Source: Dysgonamonadaceae bacterium (GTDB lineage: Bacteria > Bacteroidota > Bacteroidia > Bacteroidales > Azobacteroidaceae). From it: DNA of 32,266 bases. The notes below the pieces were generated by a model. The model was not told the origin of the DNA, did not search any database, and was given only the letters and a program-made list of their open reading frames with translations. Below, one piece after another: positions 7,888 to 31,693 of the stretch. Where the stretch lies: NCBI GenBank assembly GCA_031289145.1, contig JAITQA010000130.1:1-32266 (forward strand), written 5' to 3'. The translations under genes and the position numbers were made by a program. The first letter of the stretch is position 1; the number at the start of each line of letters is the position of its first letter.

Positions 7888-8703
7888 TTATTTCAATAAT
7901 TTTTCCACATTTCCATACAGTCGCTTGATTTCTTTCAGATATTTCCCTGAAGGATAATCATTTGCATAAGCAAAATATTCGTCTGCCACGTCCCTGTAAC
8001 GAAATTCTTTTTTCTCTTCCACACTCCTGAGCGCCATTTCATACTTCGACTTGAAGACATAATACATAAAATCTTCACGGTATTTGGAATAGGGATAAGA
8101 ATGCATGGCATTCTGTGCGGTAAGAACACAGGAAAGATAATTGCCTCCGGGAAATGAATAGATGACATAATCACCTAAATTATAGTACAATTTGACAGAA
8201 ATTAATTCTTTGAATGCCAATTTCTCCTGCAATTCAAACATGGTGGTTTCCACCTCTTCTTTCTTTTCGCTTTGGGGATATATTTCAATAAAACTTTGGA
8301 ACTCTTGCATGGCTTTGTACGTATCCGTTTGGTCGAGCCGCGGGTCGGGAGATTCCAAATACAGGCAATGCGCTGAATAATAACGTGCCAACTCGGCGTA
8401 TTCTCCTCTCGCATAAGTCGTATAATAGCTGCGGAAATACTCCGAAGCCGTAAGGTAATCTTTCATCCGAAAGTAACTCTGCGCCAATAAATACATGGCT
8501 TCTTCACCCCGTGACGTTGTTCGCGTCATTTGCACAACCTCTTCCAGCAAAGTCGCCGCCCTACTGTATTTTCCTGCATCGAAATACTTTTTTGCATAGT
8601 CATATTTAACATTCATATCAGGGTTTTTCAGTACGCTATTGTACTCCCCGCAAGCAAAAAACAGAAAAGCAAAAAAGAAAACGACAGCAATTTTTGACTT
8701 CAT
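7888..8703 (-). CDS. bamD: Outer-membrane assembly lipoprotein BamD
   Basis: A 271-residue lipoprotein made of tetratricopeptide-like repeats (YDYAKKYFDAGKYSRAATLLEEV and AMYLLAQSYFRMKDYLTASEYF), matching BamD/YfiO, the essential partner of BamA in beta-barrel insertion. The lipobox LFFAC places the lipidated cysteine at residue 18. The ATG at 8703 is chosen over an in-frame ATG at 8724: it gives a normal lipoprotein signal, and the upstream start would overlap the -7 promoter box at 8722-8729. It heads an operon with rpoZ, DUF4293 and fecCD. Confidence 0.92.
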   Translation of the reverse strand: MKSKIAVVFFFAFLFFACGEYNSVLKNPDMNVKYDYAKKYFDAGKYSRAATLLEEVVQMTRTTSRGEEAMYLLAQSYFRMKDYLTASEYFRSYYTTYARGEYAELARYYSAHCLYLESPDPRLDQTDTYKAMQEFQSFIEIYPQSEKKEEVETTMFELQEKLAFKELISVKLYYNLGDYVIYSFPGGNYLSCVLTAQNAMHSYPYSKYREDFMYYVFKSKYEMALRSVEEKKEFRYRDVADEYFAYANDYPSGKYLKEIKRLYGNVEKLLK

Positions 8704-21998: not shown

Positions 21999-22988
21999 TT
22001 ATTTAGGCATTAAACTAATATTTTTTCCTTTTATTTTGTATTTTATATTACTTAATTTCTGCAGGGCGTCCAAAACATCGTTGATGTTTTCTTCCCGAAT
22101 CACCCCGTTGTAACGGATTTTTTCTCCGATATTGTTGTGCAAGGTAATGTTTACGTCGTACATGCGCTCCAGTTTTTCACAAAGTTTGCTCAACGGCATA
22201 TTGTCCATATAAATTTTATCGTTCAGCCAACCGTAGGCGTATGCAGCTGTTTTATCGACCGGTTTCAAAACATTGTTCGTTTTGTCATACATCCCGGTTT
22301 CTCCCGGTTTCAATAACAATTTATCGCCGGAAACGTCCATCTCTATGGCGCCTTCGATCAAGGTAGTTTCGATGGTTTCATCATCTTTGTAAGCCGATAA
22401 GTTAAAAGTTGTTCCGAGCACTTTTATTTGTAATCCGTCAGGAGTGGTTATAACAAGTGGCGATTTATCTTTAGCGACTTCAAAAAACCCTTCTCCGTTG
22501 AAATTCACTTCACGGATTTTTGCTGCTGCATTGTAACTGTAGCTGATTTTTGAATTGGCATTCAGCCGGACATGGGTTCCGTCGGGTAAAACGATGCTTG
22601 ACCGGTTGCCGTAGCCGGTTTCTATTTCGACGGCAGTGGCGGGTGAAGATGAACGTCCGGTAAAATACAGGGAAGCCAGGGAAACGAGGAGCAGTATGGA
22701 GGCTGCTATACCCGATACAGTATAGATGATTTGGATTTTCCTTTTTTGCCCGGCAAGATTCCGGCAATTGGCTTTGTTCGTTTTTCTCCAGGCAGCTTTT
22801 GCATCGAAAGTGTTCACCGCATATACTTTATCAATGCGATTCCAGATTTTCCGATAAGCCTCAAACCGCAGGCGATTTTCTTCGCTTTCGTCGATCCATT
22901 CCTGTAGTTCAGGAGGAATAAGGTTTGTATTTTCATTGAGAAAATAATCCCCGATATGTTTTTCTATGGGTGAAAAATCTTTCGCCAT
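21999..22988 (-). CDS. FecR-family anti-sigma factor
   Basis: A 329-residue inner-membrane protein with a short cytoplasmic N-terminal domain (about 1-80) that would hold the sigma factor, one membrane helix (about 86-109), a periplasmic FecR domain (GNRSSIVLPDGTHVRLNANS and GEGFFEVAKDKSPLVITTPDG) and a C-terminal DUF4974 domain (MDNMPLSKLCEKLERMYDVNI) that can meet the STN domain of SusC. It sits between the ECF sigma and susC genes, the standard trans-envelope signalling order. The 153-bp gap to susC probably holds the ECF-dependent promoter; no primary-sigma -7 box was found there. Confidence 0.94.
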   Translation of the reverse strand: MAKDFSPIEKHIGDYFLNENTNLIPPELQEWIDESEENRLRFEAYRKIWNRIDKVYAVNTFDAKAAWRKTNKANCRNLAGQKRKIQIIYTVSGIAASILLLVSLASLYFTGRSSSPATAVEIETGYGNRSSIVLPDGTHVRLNANSKISYSYNAAAKIREVNFNGEGFFEVAKDKSPLVITTPDGLQIKVLGTTFNLSAYKDDETIETTLIEGAIEMDVSGDKLLLKPGETGMYDKTNNVLKPVDKTAAYAYGWLNDKIYMDNMPLSKLCEKLERMYDVNITLHNNIGEKIRYNGVIREENINDVLDALQKLSNIKYKIKGKNISLMPK

Positions 22989-23124
22989 AAAATTATGTTT
23001 TTAAAGATTAAAATATCCTTATCAAATACTAAGACACGTAAGTGAACAAAAAAGTACTATTCCCGTCGAATTTTTAACAAAAACCGACGCTGTTATTTTA
23101 TCCGACTGCTTTTAACGGGTTCTT

Positions 23125-23685
23125 TTACTGTTTTTTCAGTTCAAGGCAGTTTTTGAGTCGACGCAAAGCGGCGCCTGTTTGATTTTTAATGGTTTGCAGG
23201 GAAATATTCAATTTTTCGGCAATTTCTTTTTGTTTGTATCCATCGACGCGGTGCATCAATAGAATTTCTTTACACCGGGGCGGGAGTTGCCGGATACAAT
23301 CCAGGAGCGCTTCATCGTATTCGTCTTCGTCCGGAAAATTTCCATCAAGGTAAGACTCGTCTTCTGTCCCTATTTTTTCGAGTAGGATTTTGCGGTTGGC
23401 TTCATCTCGGATAAAGTTGATAGCCTTGTTTTTAGCCGTCCGAAATAAGTAAGCGGAGATATTTGTTTGCAAATCAATTTCTTTCCGGTTCGTCCACAGT
23501 TTCACAAACAAGTCCTGTACAATATCTTCCGTATCGTACCTATCGTTGATTATACTGTTTACAAATACGCACAATTTAGGATAATAATACATAAACAGTT
23601 GATTATAGCTTGTATAATCATCCTCTTTAATGTTTTTTATCCATTGGCTATCTGATTGACTGTCAAGAATTTTCATATTTCCCAA
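23125..23685 (-). CDS. ECF (sigma-70 family) sigma factor
   Basis: The 186-residue protein has sigma region 2 (YNQLFMYYYPKLCVFVNSII, DTEDIVQDLFVKLWTNRKEI, AYLFRTAKNKAINFIRD) and region 4 (EALLDCIRQLPPRCKEILLMHRVDGYKQKEIAEKLNISLQTIKNQ), with no region 1 or 3. It belongs to the FecI-like ECF group that activates SusCD loci when the FecR partner relays ligand binding. The start at 23685 or the ATG three codons later are both possible. Confidence 0.94.
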   Translation of the reverse strand: MGNMKILDSQSDSQWIKNIKEDDYTSYNQLFMYYYPKLCVFVNSIINDRYDTEDIVQDLFVKLWTNRKEIDLQTNISAYLFRTAKNKAINFIRDEANRKILLEKIGTEDESYLDGNFPDEDEYDEALLDCIRQLPPRCKEILLMHRVDGYKQKEIAEKLNISLQTIKNQTGAALRRLKNCLELKKQ

Positions 23686-23770: not shown

Positions 23771-23859
23771 TGCATCCCGTCAGGGATGCATCCTTACGGG
23801 ATGCATTTTTTCGGGATTACATTCGTTTTCTACCGAGCGATGCAATCCTGACGGATTGC
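23771..23859. repeat. REP-like palindrome cluster
   Basis: Three hairpins share a TGCATCC/GCAATCC core. The first is TGCATCCC-GTCA-GGGATGCA at 23771-23790. The second, 23787-23805, overlaps the first and is mutually exclusive with it. The third is GCAATCC-TGAC-GGATTGC at 23842-23859; its reverse complement carries the same GTCA loop, so it is an inverted copy. The arrangement recalls BIME-type clusters of REP elements. Confidence 0.7.
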
Positions 23860-24013: not shown

Positions 24014-24050
24014 TGTCCGTTACCGTACAAAAAGTGTCCGTTTTCGGACA
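24014..24050 (+). promoter_or_regulatory. Two upstream activator palindromes 21 bp apart
   Basis: Site 1 (24014-24029) is TGTCCGTTACCGTACA; site 2 (24035-24050) is TGTCCGTTTTCGGACA, a perfect palindrome with a T4 centre, extended by flanking A and T runs. Their starts are 21 bp apart, two helical turns. They lie about 90-110 bp upstream of the start predicted from the sigma-54 promoter, the usual place for an enhancer-binding activator. Site 2 with its flanking T-run could alternatively be a terminator. Confidence 0.6.
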
Positions 24051-24103
24051 CTTTTTTATTCCTTGATTTTTCATAATATCTTGAATAATATTGTTTTACA
24101 ACT

Positions 24104-24120
24104 TTGGCACGATGCTTGTA
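24104..24120 (+). promoter_or_regulatory. Sigma-54 (RpoN) promoter of the ABC-transglutaminase operon
   Basis: TTGGCACGATGCTTGTA matches the RpoN consensus YTGGCACGRNNNTTGCW at every defined position except T for C in the -12 GC pair. The GG of -24 is at 24106-24107 and the -12 pair at 24118-24119. The start of transcription would be near 24131 and the first gene begins at 24150. Confidence 0.75.
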
Positions 24121-24149
24121 TTTATTTTAGCAAACAAATACAAATAAAC

Positions 24150-24851
24150 ATGATACAAATAAACAATTTACGAAAAGTTTACCGGACGGAAGAAGTCGAA
24201 ACTGTGGCATTGGACAATCTATCGTTGCATGTAAAGGTGAATGAATTTGTAGCTGTCATGGGACCTTCCGGCTGTGGAAAATCTACTTTACTGAATGTTT
24301 TAGGGCTGTTGGATGAGTCGGACAGCGGTAGCTATTTGTTTAACGGGGAAGAAATTTCAAAATTTGGCGAGAATAAACGTTGCGACCTTCGGAGAGCCAA
24401 TATCGGTTTTGTTTTCCAGAATTTTAACCTGATTGACGAATTAACCGTATTTGAAAATGTGGAATTGCCTTTGGAATATTCCGGAATCAAGTCGTCGGTA
24501 CGGAAAGAAATGGTGGAAGCCGCCTTGAAAAGCGTTCAGATGACGCACCGCCGCAATCATTTTCCCGCTCAACTGTCAGGAGGTCAGCAACAACGGGTTG
24601 CAGTCGCCCGCGCTATCGTCAACCACCCGAAACTGATTCTGGCCGACGAGCCGACCGGGAATCTGGATAGCCATAACGGCATGGAAGTCATGGAAATTCT
24701 CACTACTTTGAATGAAAACGGAACGACCATCGTCATGGTGACACACAGCGAACACGACGCCCGTTACAGTCATCGTATTGTTCATGTCCTGGACGGACAA
24801 ACGGTTACGGAAAATTTTCTGAGAGAATTGGCGTATTCGGCAAAAAACTGA
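24150..24851 (+). CDS. ABC transporter ATP-binding protein, LolD/MacB type
   Basis: A 233-residue ATPase with Walker [10 protein letters not shown] (38-46), Q-loop [13 protein letters not shown], signature LSGGQQQRV (142 onward), Walker [14 protein letters not shown] and the H-loop VTHSEHDA. It belongs to the MacB/FtsE/LolD subfamily that powers FtsX-type permeases by mechanotransmission. The ATG at 24150 is chosen because the protein then begins [21 protein letters not shown] as in homologues, and because it lies just after the sigma-54 promoter. The partner permease is two genes downstream. Confidence 0.93.
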
Positions 24852-24891: not shown

Positions 24892-25809
24892 ATGAAACGG
24901 AAAACAGAACGCATTATTTGGATAAGTATCACTTCATTCCTGAGTTTAATAATTATCGGGATAGGGATTTTAGTCTTAATCGCTTACAATCAGGTGCAAA
25001 AAAAGAAAAACAGCAAAGAGGCAAGTTATCTTCCTTTGCTTCAGGAATCACAAGGGTATAATGACAAATTAGACTTAAACCTGCCGTCATTCACCTATCA
25101 ACCGTCCAATGACTCTAATTTGGTACATGTGCGAACCTATTTTAATCTGGATAGCGTTGTTGGCAATGGAAACGAATTGTCTCAAATTAAAAACTTGATG
25201 TATTATATGCACGACCTTGTACGTCACGATGGAAATAATCCGTTAAAGGATGTGAGTCGAAATTCTATTTCTCTGATTGACTACTGTAAAAAAGAAAACG
25301 TAGGCATGAATTGCCGCATGATGGCGATTTCCTTGAATGAATTTTACTTGGCAATGGGTTTTCCTTCCCGGTTTGTCGTCTGTTTACCACAAGATTCTAC
25401 CGACATAGATTCTCATATAATAAACATCGTTTACTCAAGGGATTTAAGCAAATGGATTTGGATAGACCCGACATTTGCCGCTTATGTTGCAGATGAAAAG
25501 AATCAACTGTTAAATATTGAAGAAGTCAGATACCGGCTGATAAATAACCTGCCTTTGGTTTTGAATGAAGACGCCAATTGGAATCACGAAAAACAGACTG
25601 CAAAGTATTATTTAAAAACGTATATGGCAAAGAATTTATATTGGGTAGAATGTCTGGCAGACAGCCGCTACGCCGCGGAGGATGCCACTTTGGAAGATAG
25701 GCAATATATTCGTTTATGTCCGGAAGGATTTTCCGGTTTTCATTATAAGAATTATATTACCAATAATCCCCATTATTTCTGGCAAATTCCCGATAGATTA
25801 AACCAATAA
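24892..25809 (+). CDS. Membrane-anchored periplasmic transglutaminase-like protein
   Basis: The 305-residue protein has one N-terminal membrane anchor (about 9-31) and a transglutaminase-like core. The expected Cys-His-Asp triad is visible: Cys141 in VGMNCRMMA, His175 in IDSHIINIVY and Asp192 in KWIWIDPTF. The family includes thiol proteases, peptide cross-linking or hydrolysing enzymes and inactive scaffolds; with an intact triad, a peptidase-like or acyl-transfer activity in the periplasm is possible. It lies 40 bp after the ABC ATPase and 11 bp before the FtsX permease, so it belongs to their operon. This gene order is unusual, and the substrate is unknown. Confidence 0.8.
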   Translation: MKRKTERIIWISITSFLSLIIIGIGILVLIAYNQVQKKKNSKEASYLPLLQESQGYNDKLDLNLPSFTYQPSNDSNLVHVRTYFNLDSVVGNGNELSQIKNLMYYMHDLVRHDGNNPLKDVSRNSISLIDYCKKENVGMNCRMMAISLNEFYLAMGFPSRFVVCLPQDSTDIDSHIINIVYSRDLSKWIWIDPTFAAYVADEKNQLLNIEEVRYRLINNLPLVLNEDANWNHEKQTAKYYLKTYMAKNLYWVECLADSRYAAEDATLEDRQYIRLCPEGFSGFHYKNYITNNPHYFWQIPDRLNQ

Positions 25810-25820
25810 AACTACCAACG

Positions 25821-28193
25821 ATGAATCTCAAAAAATCTTTCCGGATTATTTTCCGGAACAAAACATACGGCATCCTGAATATACTCGGATTAACCATCGG
25901 AATTACTTCCGCGGCTCTGATTTTACTTTGGGTGGAATATCATTTTTCTTACAACAAGGCGATTCCTCATTCAGAAAACCTGTATATGTTCGGACAACAT
26001 CAGCATTACGGCGATGATACTCGTACCTTTTTTGTCTCACCCGGCCCCATGCCCGAATGGTTGAAAAACAATATTCCCGAAATCAAGCGTGTTTCCCGTT
26101 ATGGGTGGGGAAGCAAACAAGTTTTTTCCCTTGAAAATTCCACCCATCTTTTTTCCGAATTTGGCGAGTACCTGGATGAGTATATTTGTGAAATGATTGG
26201 GATGACTTTCGTCCGGGGAAATGCTCAAACCGCTTTTGAATCGGCATTTCCAATTGTATTAAGTGAAAAAATGGCTGAAAAAATCTTCGGCAAAGAAGAC
26301 CCGGTAGGGAAAAATCTTCAGTTGAACGGTCAATCATTTGAAATAACCGGCGTATATAAGAATTTGCCGAAAAATACGGCTTTCCAATTTGAATGGCTAA
26401 TTCCTTTCCGCGTGAAAGCGCAGGAACTTTATGATAAGAATTGGGCGCAAGAAGGAAATTGGAACAGCAATTGGCTACAATGCTATGTAGAAGTGGAACC
26501 ACATGCCGATATTGAAGCTATCAATGAGAAAATGAATCAATTGCTTTCGGAATTGTTCTATAATAAGGGATTTATTTATCCGATTAACCGGCAGCGTTTG
26601 TACGGAGAATTTAAAGACGGAATGGAAACCGGTAGCGGATACATCCGTACGGTTCGCTTGTTTTTCATGATTGGTTTGGTTATCTTGCTGATTGCCTGTA
26701 TCAATTTCATGAATCTTTCTACGGCGCGTTCCCAAAAGCGAGCTTTGGAAGTGGGCGTAAGGAAAACATTCGGAACAAAACGAAAAGCGCTGATTCAGCA
26801 ATTTTTGACCGAATCGGGATTAATTACCTTCATTTCTTTGGCTTTAGCGGTAGGATTGATTTATTTGTGCCTGCCCTCATTCAACGAATTGGTTTCCAGA
26901 GAACTTTTTATCAATTGGGCGAATCCGGTTGTTGTGGGAGGTTTGATTGGGATAGGCATTCTTTGTACTTTCCTTGCCGGAAGTTATCCTGCATTTTATT
27001 TATCTTCTTTTTCGCCGAATGCAGCTTTGAAAAAACAAAAAGCCGGTGGAAGCGGGAGCGTTGTATGGATACGCAAAGGATTGGTTGTCTTTCAATTTGC
27101 TATTGCATTTGTCCTGATTTGCGCCACTTGGGTCGTTTTCCTTCAGATTCAATTTGTTCAAAAGCGGGATTTAGGTATTGTGAAAGAAAACTTAGTTATG
27201 TTTAATGCTACGGATGCTATTAAAAAGAGCTTTTCGGCTGTCAGGAATGAAATTTTCAATACCGGACTTGTGGAAAGCGCCGCTTTGAGTAGTCAAACTT
27301 TATTGAATATTCATAATAATGGGGGTGGTTACCAATGGCAAGGAAAAGCCCCTGAGACGAATCCTTTGATTTCACTTGTAATGGGAAGTTCGGGTTTAAT
27401 TGATGCCGCTGGATTAAAGTTAATGGACGGACGGGATTTTATACCGCAGGAAGAAGACGGCAGGTCGTATGTAATTATCAATCAAACGCTGGCGGAAATC
27501 ATGGGAGAAGAAGGAAAAGTTGGAGGACATATCGGTCAGGGAAATGATCCGGACGATCAATTGGAGATTATTGGTATCGTAAAAGATTTTGTTTTCAATA
27601 ATGTGTACAGGGAAAAACCCGAACCGGTTGTTTTTCGCGCTTATTTACCTTATACCGATAATTTGTTTGTCCGTCTGAAGCAAGGTGTTAATCCTTTAGA
27701 AACCATAGCAAAACTAAAAAACACGCTTCAGACCTTCACGCCGGACGAACCTTTCGACCCGACTTATATGGACGATCAATTCAACAATATGTTTTCCGGC
27801 GAACGCATGGAAGGCAAATTATCCGCTTTGTTTGCCGGCTTGGCAATTTTTATTTCCTGTCTGGGTTTGTTCGGATTGAGCGCTTTCTCGGCGGAACAGC
27901 GCACAAAGGAAATCGGGATTCGCAAGGTATTGGGCGCCAGTCTGGGCGATATACTTGTTCAATTAGGGAAAAGCTATATGTATTTGATATCAATTGCGGT
28001 GCTAATCGGTTTACCCATTGCCTGGTATATTACATCCAATTATCTGAAAAGCTATGCTTACCGGATTGAATTAAGTTGGGAAATATTTGCCGGAGTTGTA
28101 TTGCTTGTTTCCTTAATAGCCCTGTTCACAGTGAGTTTCCAGTCTCTTCGGGCAGCGATAGCGAATCCGGTGAAGTCGATAAAAACGGAGTAA
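25821..28193 (+). CDS. MacB/FtsX-type ABC transporter permease
   Basis: A 790-residue permease of the Bacteroidota double-FtsX type. An N-terminal helix (about 17-40) leads into a MacB-like periplasmic domain, followed by an FtsX block (about 280-430, with MNLSTARSQKRALEVGVRKTFG), a second periplasmic domain and a last FtsX block (about 670-790, LSAFSAEQRTKEIGIRKVLGAS). Such proteins do not form a classical channel; they move periplasmic domains to expel peptides, lipoproteins or antibiotics, or to regulate envelope enzymes. With the neighbouring ATPase it makes a complete transporter. A hairpin terminator follows its stop codon. Confidence 0.92.
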   Translation: MNLKKSFRIIFRNKTYGILNILGLTIGITSAALILLWVEYHFSYNKAIPHSENLYMFGQHQHYGDDTRTFFVSPGPMPEWLKNNIPEIKRVSRYGWGSKQVFSLENSTHLFSEFGEYLDEYICEMIGMTFVRGNAQTAFESAFPIVLSEKMAEKIFGKEDPVGKNLQLNGQSFEITGVYKNLPKNTAFQFEWLIPFRVKAQELYDKNWAQEGNWNSNWLQCYVEVEPHADIEAINEKMNQLLSELFYNKGFIYPINRQRLYGEFKDGMETGSGYIRTVRLFFMIGLVILLIACINFMNLSTARSQKRALEVGVRKTFGTKRKALIQQFLTESGLITFISLALAVGLIYLCLPSFNELVSRELFINWANPVVVGGLIGIGILCTFLAGSYPAFYLSSFSPNAALKKQKAGGSGSVVWIRKGLVVFQFAIAFVLICATWVVFLQIQFVQKRDLGIVKENLVMFNATDAIKKSFSAVRNEIFNTGLVESAALSSQTLLNIHNNGGGYQWQGKAPETNPLISLVMGSSGLIDAAGLKLMDGRDFIPQEEDGRSYVIINQTLAEIMGEEGKVGGHIGQGNDPDDQLEIIGIVKDFVFNNVYREKPEPVVFRAYLPYTDNLFVRLKQGVNPLETIAKLKNTLQTFTPDEPFDPTYMDDQFNNMFSGERMEGKLSALFAGLAIFISCLGLFGLSAFSAEQRTKEIGIRKVLGASLGDILVQLGKSYMYLISIAVLIGLPIAWYITSNYLKSYAYRIELSWEIFAGVVLLVSLIALFTVSFQSLRAAIANPVKSIKTE

Positions 28194-28333: not shown

Positions 28334-28456
28334 ATGGATACCTTGGAATTGGAAGCCCAAAAGGCAAAACTTGCACGTGAAATCCTCAATGAAACAGACA
28401 AGGAGAGTATCACGAAATTGTTGCATTATTTCCGCACTTTGCATGAAACATCTTAG
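28334..28456 (+). CDS. Small 40-residue helical protein
   Basis: This short frame begins MDTLELEAQKAKLAREILNE and ends in YFRTLHETS. It looks like a charged amphipathic helix pair with no signal peptide or Gly-Gly leader site. Its start resembles the N-terminus of longer Bacteroidota antitoxin-like proteins, so it might be a shortened relative. Evidence that it is real: a promoter with a perfect -7 box 28 bases upstream, a plausible start, and a 14-bp overlap with the next gene suggesting translational coupling. It may serve as a coupling leader, a small regulator or a substrate of the operon; none is proven. Confidence 0.55.
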   Translation: MDTLELEAQKAKLAREILNETDKESITKLLHYFRTLHETS

Positions 28457-29678
28457 ACTTGTCGCTTTCGTTTTTTTTCTTCAGACCATTGTTTGTTGTA
28501 ATACATTTGCGCAAACGTTTACTACTCTCAATAAGGGAGGTAGTAGCCGGAAAGACTATTATTCGGTTATCCCTTATGAGGAATTTGATAATTTAATGAT
28601 TATCAAAGTGATGATTAATGGAAAAGAATATCGGTTTCTCTTTGATACGGGGGCAATGGTCTGTATTTCGGATTCTTTAATGAAAGAGTTGCAACTTCCG
28701 GAAATTAAGAGATTGGAAATATCGGACTCAAGCGATAAAAAAGACAGTCTTTCTGTGGTTATGTTAAAAGAAATTCAGTTAGACAGTTTATTTTTCAGGG
28801 ATATTCCGGCTATGGTTTTCAAAGAAAACGAACAGTTCACTTGTTTGGGAATCGATGGTATTATAGGCAGCAACCTGCTCAGAAATTCTATTGTTCGTTT
28901 TTCTAAATTGGAGCGCAATATTGTGATAACAGATAATCCGAAAAGACTGAATCTGAAATCCAAGAAAAAACTGTCTCAAAAATTGTTCCTCACGCATGGA
29001 CAAAGTTCCCCTTATTTCCGGTTGGAAATCAAGAACAAGAAAACGGCCAGGGTTCAACTCTTGTTTGATAGCGGAAGTAACGGATTCTTTGATTTGTCGC
29101 TGAGACATTTCAACCATTTTGAAAAATATAGGGGAAGCAAATTTTATGATATTTTGTCTAAAACCGAAGGAGGAAGTTCTTTGGGAGTGCACGGAAAGGA
29201 AAATGACACAGTGCAATATGCCTTGCATACGCAGAATATGAAAATCAATCGTGCGGTTTTTAAAGAGGTAAATTTCTATTCAACGGCCGACGACAACTCC
29301 CGCGTGGGTGCAGCATTGTTAAAACATGGAGTTGTAACTATAGATTACATAAACAAACGTTTTTATTTTGAACCTTATTTTGAAAAGGAAAAGGAATTAG
29401 CCGAAAAGATTCAACCCCTTCGTTTAACCTGGGACAAAGGGCGACCTGTTGTCGGCATTGTTTGGGATGAAACCTTGAGAAAAACAATCAGTCCCGGAGA
29501 CATTGTACTTTTCATCAACGATGAAAATATGGAAAATCTGTTCCACTGCGATTTTATGAAAAATAGGTGGAACTATTTTCAGGGAGATAAGGTTACTTTG
29601 ACTGTCCGAAAGGCAGAGGGTATCGTCAGGACTGTGAGCGTAATGGACTTCATTATGCAGCAAAATAATCTTAGATGA
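28443..29678 (+). CDS. Secreted aspartyl protease with PDZ domain
   Basis: A 411-residue protein with a signal peptide (MKHLRLVAFVFFLQTIVCCN ... FAQ), two retropepsin-like lobes and a C-terminal PDZ-like domain (about 325-411, SPGDIVLFINDENMENL). Lobe 1 has FLFDTGAMV (Asp68-Thr-Gly) with a later GIDGIIGSNLL flap/second-half signature. Lobe 2 has LLFDSGSNG (Asp209-Ser-Gly). Two Asp motifs in one chain suggest a pepsin-like intramolecular pair or two half-sites. The ATG at 28443 is chosen for the signal peptide; the in-frame upstream ATG at 28371 would lie within the small gene. It overlaps the next gene by 4 bp (ATGA), so it is tightly coupled to the exporter. Confidence 0.85.
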   Translation: MKHLRLVAFVFFLQTIVCCNTFAQTFTTLNKGGSSRKDYYSVIPYEEFDNLMIIKVMINGKEYRFLFDTGAMVCISDSLMKELQLPEIKRLEISDSSDKKDSLSVVMLKEIQLDSLFFRDIPAMVFKENEQFTCLGIDGIIGSNLLRNSIVRFSKLERNIVITDNPKRLNLKSKKKLSQKLFLTHGQSSPYFRLEIKNKKTARVQLLFDSGSNGFFDLSLRHFNHFEKYRGSKFYDILSKTEGGSSLGVHGKENDTVQYALHTQNMKINRAVFKEVNFYSTADDNSRVGAALLKHGVVTIDYINKRFYFEPYFEKEKELAEKIQPLRLTWDKGRPVVGIVWDETLRKTISPGDIVLFINDENMENLFHCDFMKNRWNYFQGDKVTLTVRKAEGIVRTVSVMDFIMQQNNLR

Positions 29679-30928
29679 AAATTTATGCTGTTTTTATATT
29701 AAAATGGAAGTCTATAATCAGGCATCCAATGTTTGAACAAGGTTTATTCTTTCGATTCTTATTTTCTTTGTTCATCCTGTCCTTGTTATACACGGTATTT
29801 TTATTGGGAAATTTGTTTAATCAATTCTGTTTCAGTTTATTTACGGATGATTTGAATCCATTTTGTATATTCATATTCTCCGTTCTTCCCCTGATTTTGT
29901 TCGACTTTATTTTGAAATTTTTTTTGAAAAAAGTGGATTTTCAATTTCTGACTATTGGTCGTTTTCCTGATGCAAAAAAAAGTATACGTTTTTATTTGCT
30001 TATAAAAGAACTTGTTAGTTTTTGGAATTGTTATTTATTGTTGTTTTTCTTTACTTATTTGTCAACAACTTTCTATCCTTGTTATGGCTTATTGACGACA
30101 ATCGTTTCTTTTGTGGTTTTATATGCTTTTCAGCTTTTAATCAGTCAATTAATAAAATACATTCATCGCGGTACAGGGAAAAAATCGGTTGTTCACTATT
30201 ATTTTTCTTTCAAAATAACATCGCAAGGTAGTCTGGAAAATTATCTTTTATTAAGTGTAAGAATGATTGTACGGTCTCCTCGCCTAAGGCAACAGTTTAT
30301 CTCTTTTTTATTGGTGTCCGCGATTTATTTTTATTTGTTTGGCGCCCATTCGAAAATTATGGACGTCTTTGCTTTCAGATTGTTTTTTACATCGTTCATG
30401 ATTCTCCTGTTTCCGCTCCTGTTTAACCAGTATTTGTTTTCTGCCGAAGCTTCCTTCTTTGACCATTTGATGATTAGTCCGGATTTCAGAAAAATTCTAT
30501 TTGCAAAATACAGTATGAATGTTTTCGTTTCCTTTATTTTATTTTTTATTTTTTTAGTATGTATGCCATTTAACCGGCAATTTTTTGTAGACTTGACAGC
30601 TACTTTTCTTTTTTGTTCAGGCATTGTCACTCTTTTATCATTCAGCAGTATTCTTTTTGTCACCACGAAAATAGATTTGTTTGGCGCTCATTACAAAATG
30701 CTGACAAATCCCCCTTCTGTTCAGTCGTTGTATGTTTTCTTGGTCTATGCTTTTTCAATTGCATTGGTAATCCTACTTGCGTTTGTCTTTTCGCCCTTGG
30801 TTGCCGTTTGGTTTATGTTTGTTAGCGGCGTGATTTCAATTTTGTTTTCCAATGTCTGGTTCAACTATTTATACCGGTGCTTTTATCCAAATAAGTATGA
30901 GAAAATGGAAATATTTCGGATTCAATAA
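29675..30928 (+). CDS. DUF5687 family membrane protein (ABC-2-like permease)
   Basis: The 417-residue protein is extremely hydrophobic, with about ten membrane helices and a basic N-terminus (MKIYAVFILKWKSIIRHPMF) like the KxxxRxP start of ABC-2 permeases. It resembles the Bacteroidota DUF5687 family, whose genes lie beside ABC ATPases. Here the ATPase gene starts 18 bp downstream, so the two should form an exporter. DNA of this gene is strongly AT- and T-rich, as expected for a membrane protein. The start overlaps the protease stop (ATGA). Substrate unknown. Confidence 0.8.
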   Translation: MKIYAVFILKWKSIIRHPMFEQGLFFRFLFSLFILSLLYTVFLLGNLFNQFCFSLFTDDLNPFCIFIFSVLPLILFDFILKFFLKKVDFQFLTIGRFPDAKKSIRFYLLIKELVSFWNCYLLLFFFTYLSTTFYPCYGLLTTIVSFVVLYAFQLLISQLIKYIHRGTGKKSVVHYYFSFKITSQGSLENYLLLSVRMIVRSPRLRQQFISFLLVSAIYFYLFGAHSKIMDVFAFRLFFTSFMILLFPLLFNQYLFSAEASFFDHLMISPDFRKILFAKYSMNVFVSFILFFIFLVCMPFNRQFFVDLTATFLFCSGIVTLLSFSSILFVTTKIDLFGAHYKMLTNPPSVQSLYVFLVYAFSIALVILLAFVFSPLVAVWFMFVSGVISILFSNVWFNYLYRCFYPNKYEKMEIFRIQ

Positions 30929-30946
30929 ACACAAATAAAAACAGTC

Positions 30947-31693
30947 ATGGAAATAGCAATTAAAAATTTGACAAAGATATACAATAATCAAAAGGTGTTA
31001 TCCATCGGTGATTTATCAGTTGAAAAGGGTGAACTGGTTGGATTAATCGGCAATAACGGCGCAGGAAAAACGACCTTTCTTCGATTACTGACAGACTTGA
31101 TAAAAGCGGATTCCGGTGCTGTTCTTTCGAGGAATAAAAATATCAGTAAAACAGAAAACTGGAAATTTTATACCTCAGCCTACATTGATACCGGTTTTCT
31201 GATTGATTTTTACACTGCTGAAGAATATTTCAGTTTTATCGCTTCAAACTATAAAGTAAGCGATAGTGATGTAAAAGAATTACTTCGCTATCTGGATGAT
31301 TTCATGAATGGAGAGATTCTTGGCAAGAAAAAATACATCCGTGATTTTTCGTTGGGGAATCAACAAAAAATAGGAATAATCGGCGCAATATTATCCAAGC
31401 CGGAAATATTATTGTTAGATGAACCTTTCAATTTTTTAGATCCGACTTCTCAGTATTTTATCAGTAATTATTTGAATGAACTTAATAAACAGTTTAACAC
31501 AACCTTAATAATATCCAGCCATAACTTGGAATGTATTTATACAATTTCTTCCCGGATTATATTGTTGGACAAAGGGATAATAATTAAAGACGTTTCGCCT
31601 GTAAATAGTGAATTAAGGGGAGAATTGAGTAACTATTTCAAAATAGACAATATCTTAACTCCGGAAAAATCATCGGACAAAATACAAGTGTAA
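30947..31693 (+). CDS. ABC transporter ATP-binding protein, ABC-2 exporter type
   Basis: The 248-residue ATPase has Walker A GNNGAGKT (35-42), a degenerate signature SLGNQ (135-139) in place of LSGGQ, Walker B ILLLDEP (154-160) with NFLDPT as D-loop, and the H-loop ISSHNLE. This CcmA/NatA-like form with a relaxed signature is normal for ABC-2 exporters. It is the last gene of the operon. Partner: the DUF5687 membrane protein. No clear terminator follows. Confidence 0.92.
   Translation: MEIAIKNLTKIYNNQKVLSIGDLSVEKGELVGLIGNNGAGKTTFLRLLTDLIKADSGAVLSRNKNISKTENWKFYTSAYIDTGFLIDFYTAEEYFSFIASNYKVSDSDVKELLRYLDDFMNGEILGKKKYIRDFSLGNQQKIGIIGAILSKPEILLLDEPFNFLDPTSQYFISNYLNELNKQFNTTLIISSHNLECIYTISSRIILLDKGIIIKDVSPVNSELRGELSNYFKIDNILTPEKSSDKIQV

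Follow-up and report, generated by a model that had tools for sequence, protein, structure and literature searches.

How are export operons of the Bacteroidales placed under sigma-54 control? The closest described systems are those of the NtrC/ZraR/AtoC-type activators, with which the regulator considered here shares a receiver, an AAA+ domain and a Fis-type HTH, and which the present locus resembles in its paired dyads before a -24/-12 element. The enhancer spacing of NtrC at glnA is wider than the 21 bp seen in our case. In Bacteroidia, COG0577 permeases have been linked computationally to sigma-54 (PMC12316311), and a MacB/FtsX exporter with a sigma-54-like promoter is of the same kind; unlike the present analysis, the accessible text of that study names no activator, dyad or geometry. 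Similarly, the sigma-54 regulome of Desulfovibrio vulgaris (PMC4641369) has activator-specific inverted repeats and lists GAFTDA among the tolerated variants of the activator loop, but it concerns another phylum and other targets, and its accessible text does not describe tandem dyads at a fixed distance. No description of the enhancer layout reported below was found for Bacteroidota in the literature searched, which was open-licence only, and this absence means little.

The window, by which we mean the whole stretch of DNA analysed (32,266 nucleotides), is the entire contig C149 of a draft genome of a Dysgonamonadaceae bacterium (G000; 3.94 Mb, 169 contigs, 96% complete). We propose that the MacB/FtsX-like ABC export operon of the window is transcribed from a sigma-54 promoter under a response regulator that is encoded on another contig, C44, and acts through a pair of enhancer sites upstream; from the sequence comparisons that follow we consider this highly probable. 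It is a standard sigma-54 enhancer arrangement of Bacteroidota export systems.

Table 1. Features of the window, and the corresponding dyad-pair regions of two Chryseobacterium loci.
Feature	Position	Strand	Remark
Sigma factor, sigma-70-family (ECF-like)	23125-23685	-	
Distal activator dyad (predicted) TGTCCGTTACCGTACA	24014-24029	+	1/12 mismatch to TGTYCG-N4-CGRACA
Proximal activator dyad (predicted) TGTCCGTTTTCGGACA	24035-24050	+	0/12 mismatches to TGTYCG-N4-CGRACA
Sigma-54-like promoter TTGGCACGATGCTTGTA	24104-24120	+	TGGCAC-N5-TTGC-type -24/-12 element
-24 element TTGGCAC	24104-24110	+	
-12 element TTGTA	24116-24120	+	
Predicted transcription start	24129-24132	+	Counted from -24/-12 by convention
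ABC transporter ATPase, operon gene 1	24150-24851	+	ATG at 24150; Pfam ABC_tran 1.3e-35
Transglutaminase-like protein, gene 2	24892-25809	+	Pfam Transglut_core 24.6 bits, cut-off 23
MacB/FtsX-type permease, gene 3	25821-28193	+	Pfam MacB_PCD and FtsX
Chryseobacterium dyad-pair region, L066	3055-3170		
Chryseobacterium dyad-pair region, L076	3063-3180		

The dyads and the promoter lie in a divergent intergenic space of 418 bp, and the promoter begins 46 bp ahead of the ATPase ATG. An earlier note on this DNA, made from the letters alone, had held that the promoter fits the RpoN consensus apart from one base, and this is borne out: it has the form of a TGGCAC-N5-TTGC-type sigma-54 promoter with T replacing C after TTG, and the same TTGT for TTGC occurs at other promoters found in the analysis. 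The two TGTCCG-type sites reported in that note are each 16 bp long and start exactly 21 bp apart, as it had stated. Measured from the initial T of the -24 sequence, their centres lie 82 and 61 bp 5' (hereafter -82 and -61); measured from the predicted start they lie at about -109 and -88, close to the 90-110 bp first estimated. Helically phased and 5' of a promoter, they have the appearance of an NtrC-type enhancer. The core of the proximal dyad extends to a perfect palindrome (24029-24056). Inverted and direct repeats around GGGATGCAT (TGCATCCCGTCAGG/CCTTACGGGATGCA) occupy 23771-23812 of the same intergenic region, 5' of the dyads.

Among NCBIfam models the window ATPase is best matched by the DarD exporter ATPase, under its cut-off; the cut-offs of the darobactin exporter (DarD/DarB) are missed by both ATPase (283.6 of 375 bits) and permease (111.2 of 700). 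An aspartyl-protease-like protein, a DUF5687 protein and a second ABC ATPase are encoded 3' of the operon on the same strand (28371-31693).

Is the arrangement conserved? When 45 genomes of the family were searched for the dyad pair with at most 3 mismatches, seven matches appeared, spread over six genomes including the window's own (the reversed pattern matched twice). Only one match outside the window, in a genome of the same genus (G412:C17), resembled it. There the promoter TTGGCACGACTCTTGC has dyad centres at -82 and -61, a base-exact match to the window's spacing, with 2/12 mismatches in the distal and 0/12 in the proximal dyad, and it precedes an ATPase and a permease that are 85% and 81% identical to those of the window. 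The two loci agree at 22/24 letters of the half-sites and at all 10 of the -24/-12 element, against 32/53 in the spacer, 21/28 downstream and 10/20 upstream; in this comparison the half-sites are kept better than the surrounding DNA. Such base-exact conservation supports the earlier note's reading of the region as an enhancer-type control region of the ABC/transglutaminase operon.

That note had also stated that the activator is not in the window, and no activator loop motif was found there. Its distant NtrC-family response regulator has a good candidate at C44:2066-3415. In G412 the operon is divergent from genes for a response-regulator activator and a histidine kinase with a matched kinase ATPase domain, which are 83% and 72% identical to the products of C44:2066-3415 and C44:3416-4744, respectively. 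Because the orthologue of the C44 regulator divergently adjoins the orthologous operon in G412, the C44 regulator is probably the implied distant activator in the window genome. Operon and likely regulator thus lie apart in the window genome and are neighbours in G412; the place of G412's activator is occupied in the window by genes for a FecR-type protein and the ECF-like sigma factor (21999-23685, minus strand). Of the 45 family genomes, five have an orthologue of the C44 regulator, with identities of at least 76%; of the 393 order genomes, searched with a cut-off of E <= 1e-165, six have one, with identities of at least 62%. The window genome itself is included in both counts.

Conservation in relatives, the lack of which the earlier note had named as refuting its reading, extends in part to another genus (G430) and another family (G205), where the position of the proximal dyad is kept. 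In G430, TGTTCGGAAACGAACA stands at -61 with 0/12 mismatches, and the distal position holds a half-site only (4/12 mismatches); the promoter precedes HlyD, S41 peptidase, ABC and permease genes, the permease being 64% identical to the window's, and the activator orthologue is divergently adjacent. In G205, TGTCCACCAATATACA and TGTCCGTTTGTGGACA lie 21 bp apart at -82/-61 of ATGGTATGGAGATTGTA, with 4/12 distal and 1/12 proximal mismatches; the -24 element, ATGGTAT, is weak, off consensus and recognised by eye. The G205 ATPase is 77% and its permease 24% identical to the window's, and the activator orthologue is divergent from the operon with one gene between. The distal dyad is degenerate in both G430 and G205, and this counts against our model. 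The G412 (L174) and G430 (L206) operons encode S41 peptidases where the window and Chryseobacterium encode a transglutaminase-like protein, so accessory enzymes appear to be exchanged around the export core.

In a wider scan of 16 genomes, TGTYCG-N4-CGRACA matched 28 times and its reverse 8 times (forward counts); each of the 28 dyads was inspected. The paired class, with a proximal centre at -60/-61, occurs once each in G412 and G430 and twice each in G431 and G242. Of the two G431 promoters, whose distal dyads have 2 and 4 mismatches, one precedes what by eye is a HlyD-like gene and the other a gene for outer-membrane efflux. In G242, which belongs to another family and whose activator orthologue is unlinked, two regions each contain two perfect dyads 21 bp apart, with a -24 element, recognised by eye, that reads TTCGCAC and is off consensus. 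One pair precedes HlyD, ABC and FtsX-like genes (the latter two by eye); downstream of the other (L238, about 8167-8330) no gene of at least 100 codons starts within 400 bp. The paired class is thus present in 4 of 9 genomes with an activator orthologue, or in 5 of 9 if G205, found separately, is added, and in 0 of 7 without one (G413, G193, G401, G404, G399, G410 and G411). It was not seen in the other four orthologue genomes scanned (G428, G034, G164 and G257). The activator gene is at a contig edge in G428 and in another context in G431, and no such promoter stands beside the activator orthologue in G034, G242, G164 or G257.

The same scan turned up another layout, in which one TGTYCG dyad stands alone and the promoter lies 59-60 bp from the dyad start (centre about -51/-52). 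It occurs in G205 (three sites), G430:C82, G428:C106 and G034:C71, and G193:C117 has a weak version of it. In G034 a single TGTCCG-N4-CGGACA dyad with its promoter heads a module of HlyD, ABC, permease, efflux, regulator and kinase genes (the regulator by Pfam, the others by eye), and the activator of this module groups in our tree with a paralogue of the C44 regulator in the window genome, C118. In the genus to which G242 and G034 belong, the normally invariant GG of the -24 element is CG or TG (TTCGCAC, TTTGCAC) in three of three such promoters seen, at L238, L239 (G242:C25) and L242 (G034:C71).

Could C118 be the main activator of the window operon, alone or together with C44 through cross-regulation? 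The recognition helices of the two are nearly identical (GISRAALYRRMEKY in C118 against GLTRAALYRRLEKY in C44), so cross-talk between them in the window genome is possible, and the C118-type activator, given the TGTCCG dyad of the G034 module and the further single-dyad sites, probably reads the same dyad. However, the C118-type layout has one dyad at a different distance, the 21-bp arrangement at -82/-61 accompanies C44-type regulators in G412, G430 and G205, and the window ATPase is 77-85% identical to the ATPases of C44-type loci and 53% to that of C118. The promoter of the C118 operon itself lies beyond the contig end. We therefore regard a leading role for C118 as improbable and retain the C44 regulator as the preferred activator.

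What kind of protein is the C44 regulator? Its receiver, Sigma54_activat and HTH_8 matches, with an AAA+ domain of the sigma-54 type and a Fis-type HTH, give it the domains of an NtrC-type response regulator, and a histidine kinase gene adjoins it. Among the named families listed (the best 25 of 100 matched) it falls under every curated cut-off, scoring 382 of 503 bits for the PEP-CTERM regulator, 345 of 714 for AtoC and 321 of 760 for ZraR. In contrast to the NtrC/ZraR/AtoC type, its loop reads GAFTDA rather than GAFTGA, as it does in eight of its nine clade-mates; the exception is the G430 member, which has GAFTGA. In a tree of 25 activators, several deep branches of which are long and unsure, the C44 clade (n=10, this one FTGA member included) has support of 100/99. 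The window genome encodes seven strong sigma-54 activators among ten domain matches; FTDA occurs in C44, C25, C118 and C39, and FTGA in C165, C114 and C23. C25, C118 and C44 are linked to export genes in the window genome or in relatives. GAFTDA is among the loop variants expected to stay active in the accessible text of PMC4641369, and its effect is called unknown in that of PMC10714721. Activators were filtered on GAFTGA in PMC12316311, according to its accessible text, and such a filter would drop most C44-type proteins. Sigma-54 itself is encoded twice in the genome, by rpoN genes on contigs C94 and C123 (L108 and L109); the two are 48% identical, and both have the AID, CBD and DBD domains.

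With its 12-bp stem, 4-base loop and T run, the proximal palindrome could also be read as an intrinsic transcription terminator; a terminator scan flagged it, and its RNA fold reaches -19.4 kcal/mol (z -4.45). However, the palindrome lies between divergent genes, the minus-strand sigma factor and the ATPase, with no plus-strand gene seen ending upstream, so no known upstream plus-strand gene needs a terminator here. Nor does this reading explain the distal dyad and the 21-bp spacing. Furthermore, in G412 and in one of the G242 pairs (pair A) a C/A mismatch in the proximal arms breaks RNA pairing and keeps TGTYCG/CGRACA, and the perfect G430 dyad is without a T run. A terminator in place of an activator site is thus very improbable, and we continue to read the palindrome as part of the enhancer.

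How readily could such a pattern arise by chance? The paired dyads agree with the half-site letters at 23 of 24 places at 21-bp spacing; the 418-bp intergenic region, dinucleotide-shuffled 3000 times, never scored 23 and scored 22 once. Perfect loop-4 palindromes whose arms reach at least 11 arose in 1 of 3000 shuffles; the observed arm is 12. The earlier note had proposed a search of the genome for other TGTCCG-N4-CGGACA pairs before sigma-54 promoters. The window holds the only perfect copy, and the six one-mismatch dyads elsewhere in the genome have neither a sigma-54-like element at the right distance nor a second dyad. With at most one mismatch the pattern occurs at 8 places in the genome against 6 for its reverse, so that single imperfect dyads are not significant by themselves; one of them, on C70, sits at a coding-region start. 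TGTYCG-N4-CGRACA has one further place, at a coding-region start (reversed pattern, one). Likewise, a -24/-12 match taken alone is weak evidence: TTGGCAC-N5-TTGNW occurs 8 times in the genome (once reversed), but only two of the eight sites, in the window and on C25, have paired dyads upstream (by eye), and several others resemble coding DNA (by eye). Across 393 genomes of the order, the exact dyad with the -24/-12 pattern matched the window alone; that search was too strict, and relatives emerged once the paired pattern and TGTYCG were used. Chance resemblance, or a housekeeping promoter (consensus TA-N2-TTTG) driving the operon, is hardly credible: the -24/-12 pattern also appears in apparent coding DNA and lone one-mismatch dyads barely exceed their control, but the shuffles and the base-exact conservation in relatives speak against chance, and TA-N2-TTTG has no match near the operon start, its three matches lying at the far intergenic end or on the other strand.

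Transglutaminase homologues served as a further anchor, giving 80 loci of 153 relatives (863,086 bases; 7 of the 80 with less than 1,000 bp upstream). Within 1,700 bp upstream of these loci there was no promoter with a dyad pair, and an ABC signature lay within 2,600 bp upstream in three (L066, L076 and L098). In two loci of Chryseobacterium, which belongs to another class of bacteria, L066 and L076, a dyad pair and a -24/-12 element precede a HlyD-like gene about 2.9 kb upstream; the other 78 loci had no TGTYCG pair at the threshold used, and the reversed control gave 0. The L066 and L076 pairs consist of TGTCCGTTTCCGTACA and TGTCCGGTAATGAACA (or TGTCCGGAAATGAACA), with starts separated by 21 bp. 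From the start of the proximal dyad it is 78 bp to that of GTGGCACTGCGATTG (or GTGGCATTTCGATTG), which places the dyad centres at -91 and -70; the pair is thus 9 bp, nearly one helical turn, farther from the promoter than in the window. The gene order is HlyD-like, ATPase, transglutaminase-like and two FtsX-like permeases (by eye and BLAST), the ATPase being 62% and the transglutaminase-like protein 47-48% identical to the window's. The activator, divergent and upstream, is 44% identical to C44 (L076 protein compared), carries GAFTGA and falls outside the C44 clade. Because this pair stands at -91/-70 beside such an activator, the dyad and its geometry are not tied to one regulator lineage; the pairing of dyads with this kind of export operon is either older than the exact geometry of the C44 clade or independently acquired.

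Does the -82/-61 layout extend to other dyad sequences? On contig C25 TTGGCACGGGATTTGTT precedes an outer-membrane efflux gene that has a response-regulator activator divergent from it, and a pair of GTGCG-N4-CGCAC dyads with a spacing of 21 bp has its centres at -82 and -61. Nine relatives of this activator, with the same recognition-helix type, were examined over 1,500-bp flanks; four (L198, L200, L201 and L203) have GTGC-type pairs at -83/-62 with a promoter, and the other five have none. We also scanned 165 distinct sigma-54-like sites for tandem dyads (spacing 17-33, at most 160 bp upstream, at least 22 of 24 letters), and found strong pairs at nine, against 0 of 106 in the reversed control; the sites came from loci chosen around ABC/export operons and activator genes, and 9/165 should not be taken as a rate for whole genomes. 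The choice of loci did not select for position or spacing, and all nine pairs lie at -80.5 to -83 and -59.5 to -62, with a spacing of 21 (seven) or 22 (two); the Chryseobacterium pairs fell under the cut-off. Among the nine are dyads of TGTCCG, GTGC and TGTAAA type and, in a Pedobacter, of TGAAA type. Dyads of a TGTAAA-N5-TTTACA class with similar geometry and a spacing of 21-23 precede FtsX permease and efflux-type genes at L147 (G000:C13), L149 (G000:C138), L164, L165 and L166, some with TAG for TTG at -12; we would guess at a C39-type activator for this class.

One may speculate, although we consider it unlikely, that in Bacteroidota envelope and export modules are served by a family of response-regulator activators that use a rigid 21-bp dyad pair near -82/-61 with subtype-specific dyad sequences and, in Bacteroidales, mostly a GxFTDA loop. 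This FTDA loop might have its counterpart in the second RpoN or in relaxed -12 elements. Against a strict family of this kind stand the Chryseobacterium regulator, with FTGA and a pair 9 bp farther out, and the G430 regulator, also with FTGA.

For the window operon itself, we propose that the histidine kinase C44:3416-4744 would sense an envelope or export-substrate signal and phosphorylate the response regulator C44:2066-3415. Regulator dimers would then occupy the two dyads, two helical turns apart on the same face of the DNA, and assemble an AAA+ ring that, via DNA looping, would remodel the sigma-54 polymerase waiting at -24/-12. The outcome would be transcription of the ATPase-transglutaminase-permease operon.

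Finally, sigma-54 control outside the Proteobacteria is poorly mapped, and here a guess from raw sequence has led to a concrete candidate regulator, binding site and geometry. The case is also relevant to the question, left open in the accessible text of PMC10714721, of whether an activator with GAFTDA can function at an ordinary sigma-54 promoter. A near-fixed -82/-61 layout with interchangeable dyads would offer a simple way to find sigma-54 activators and export operons in Bacteroidales and to pair them with one another.
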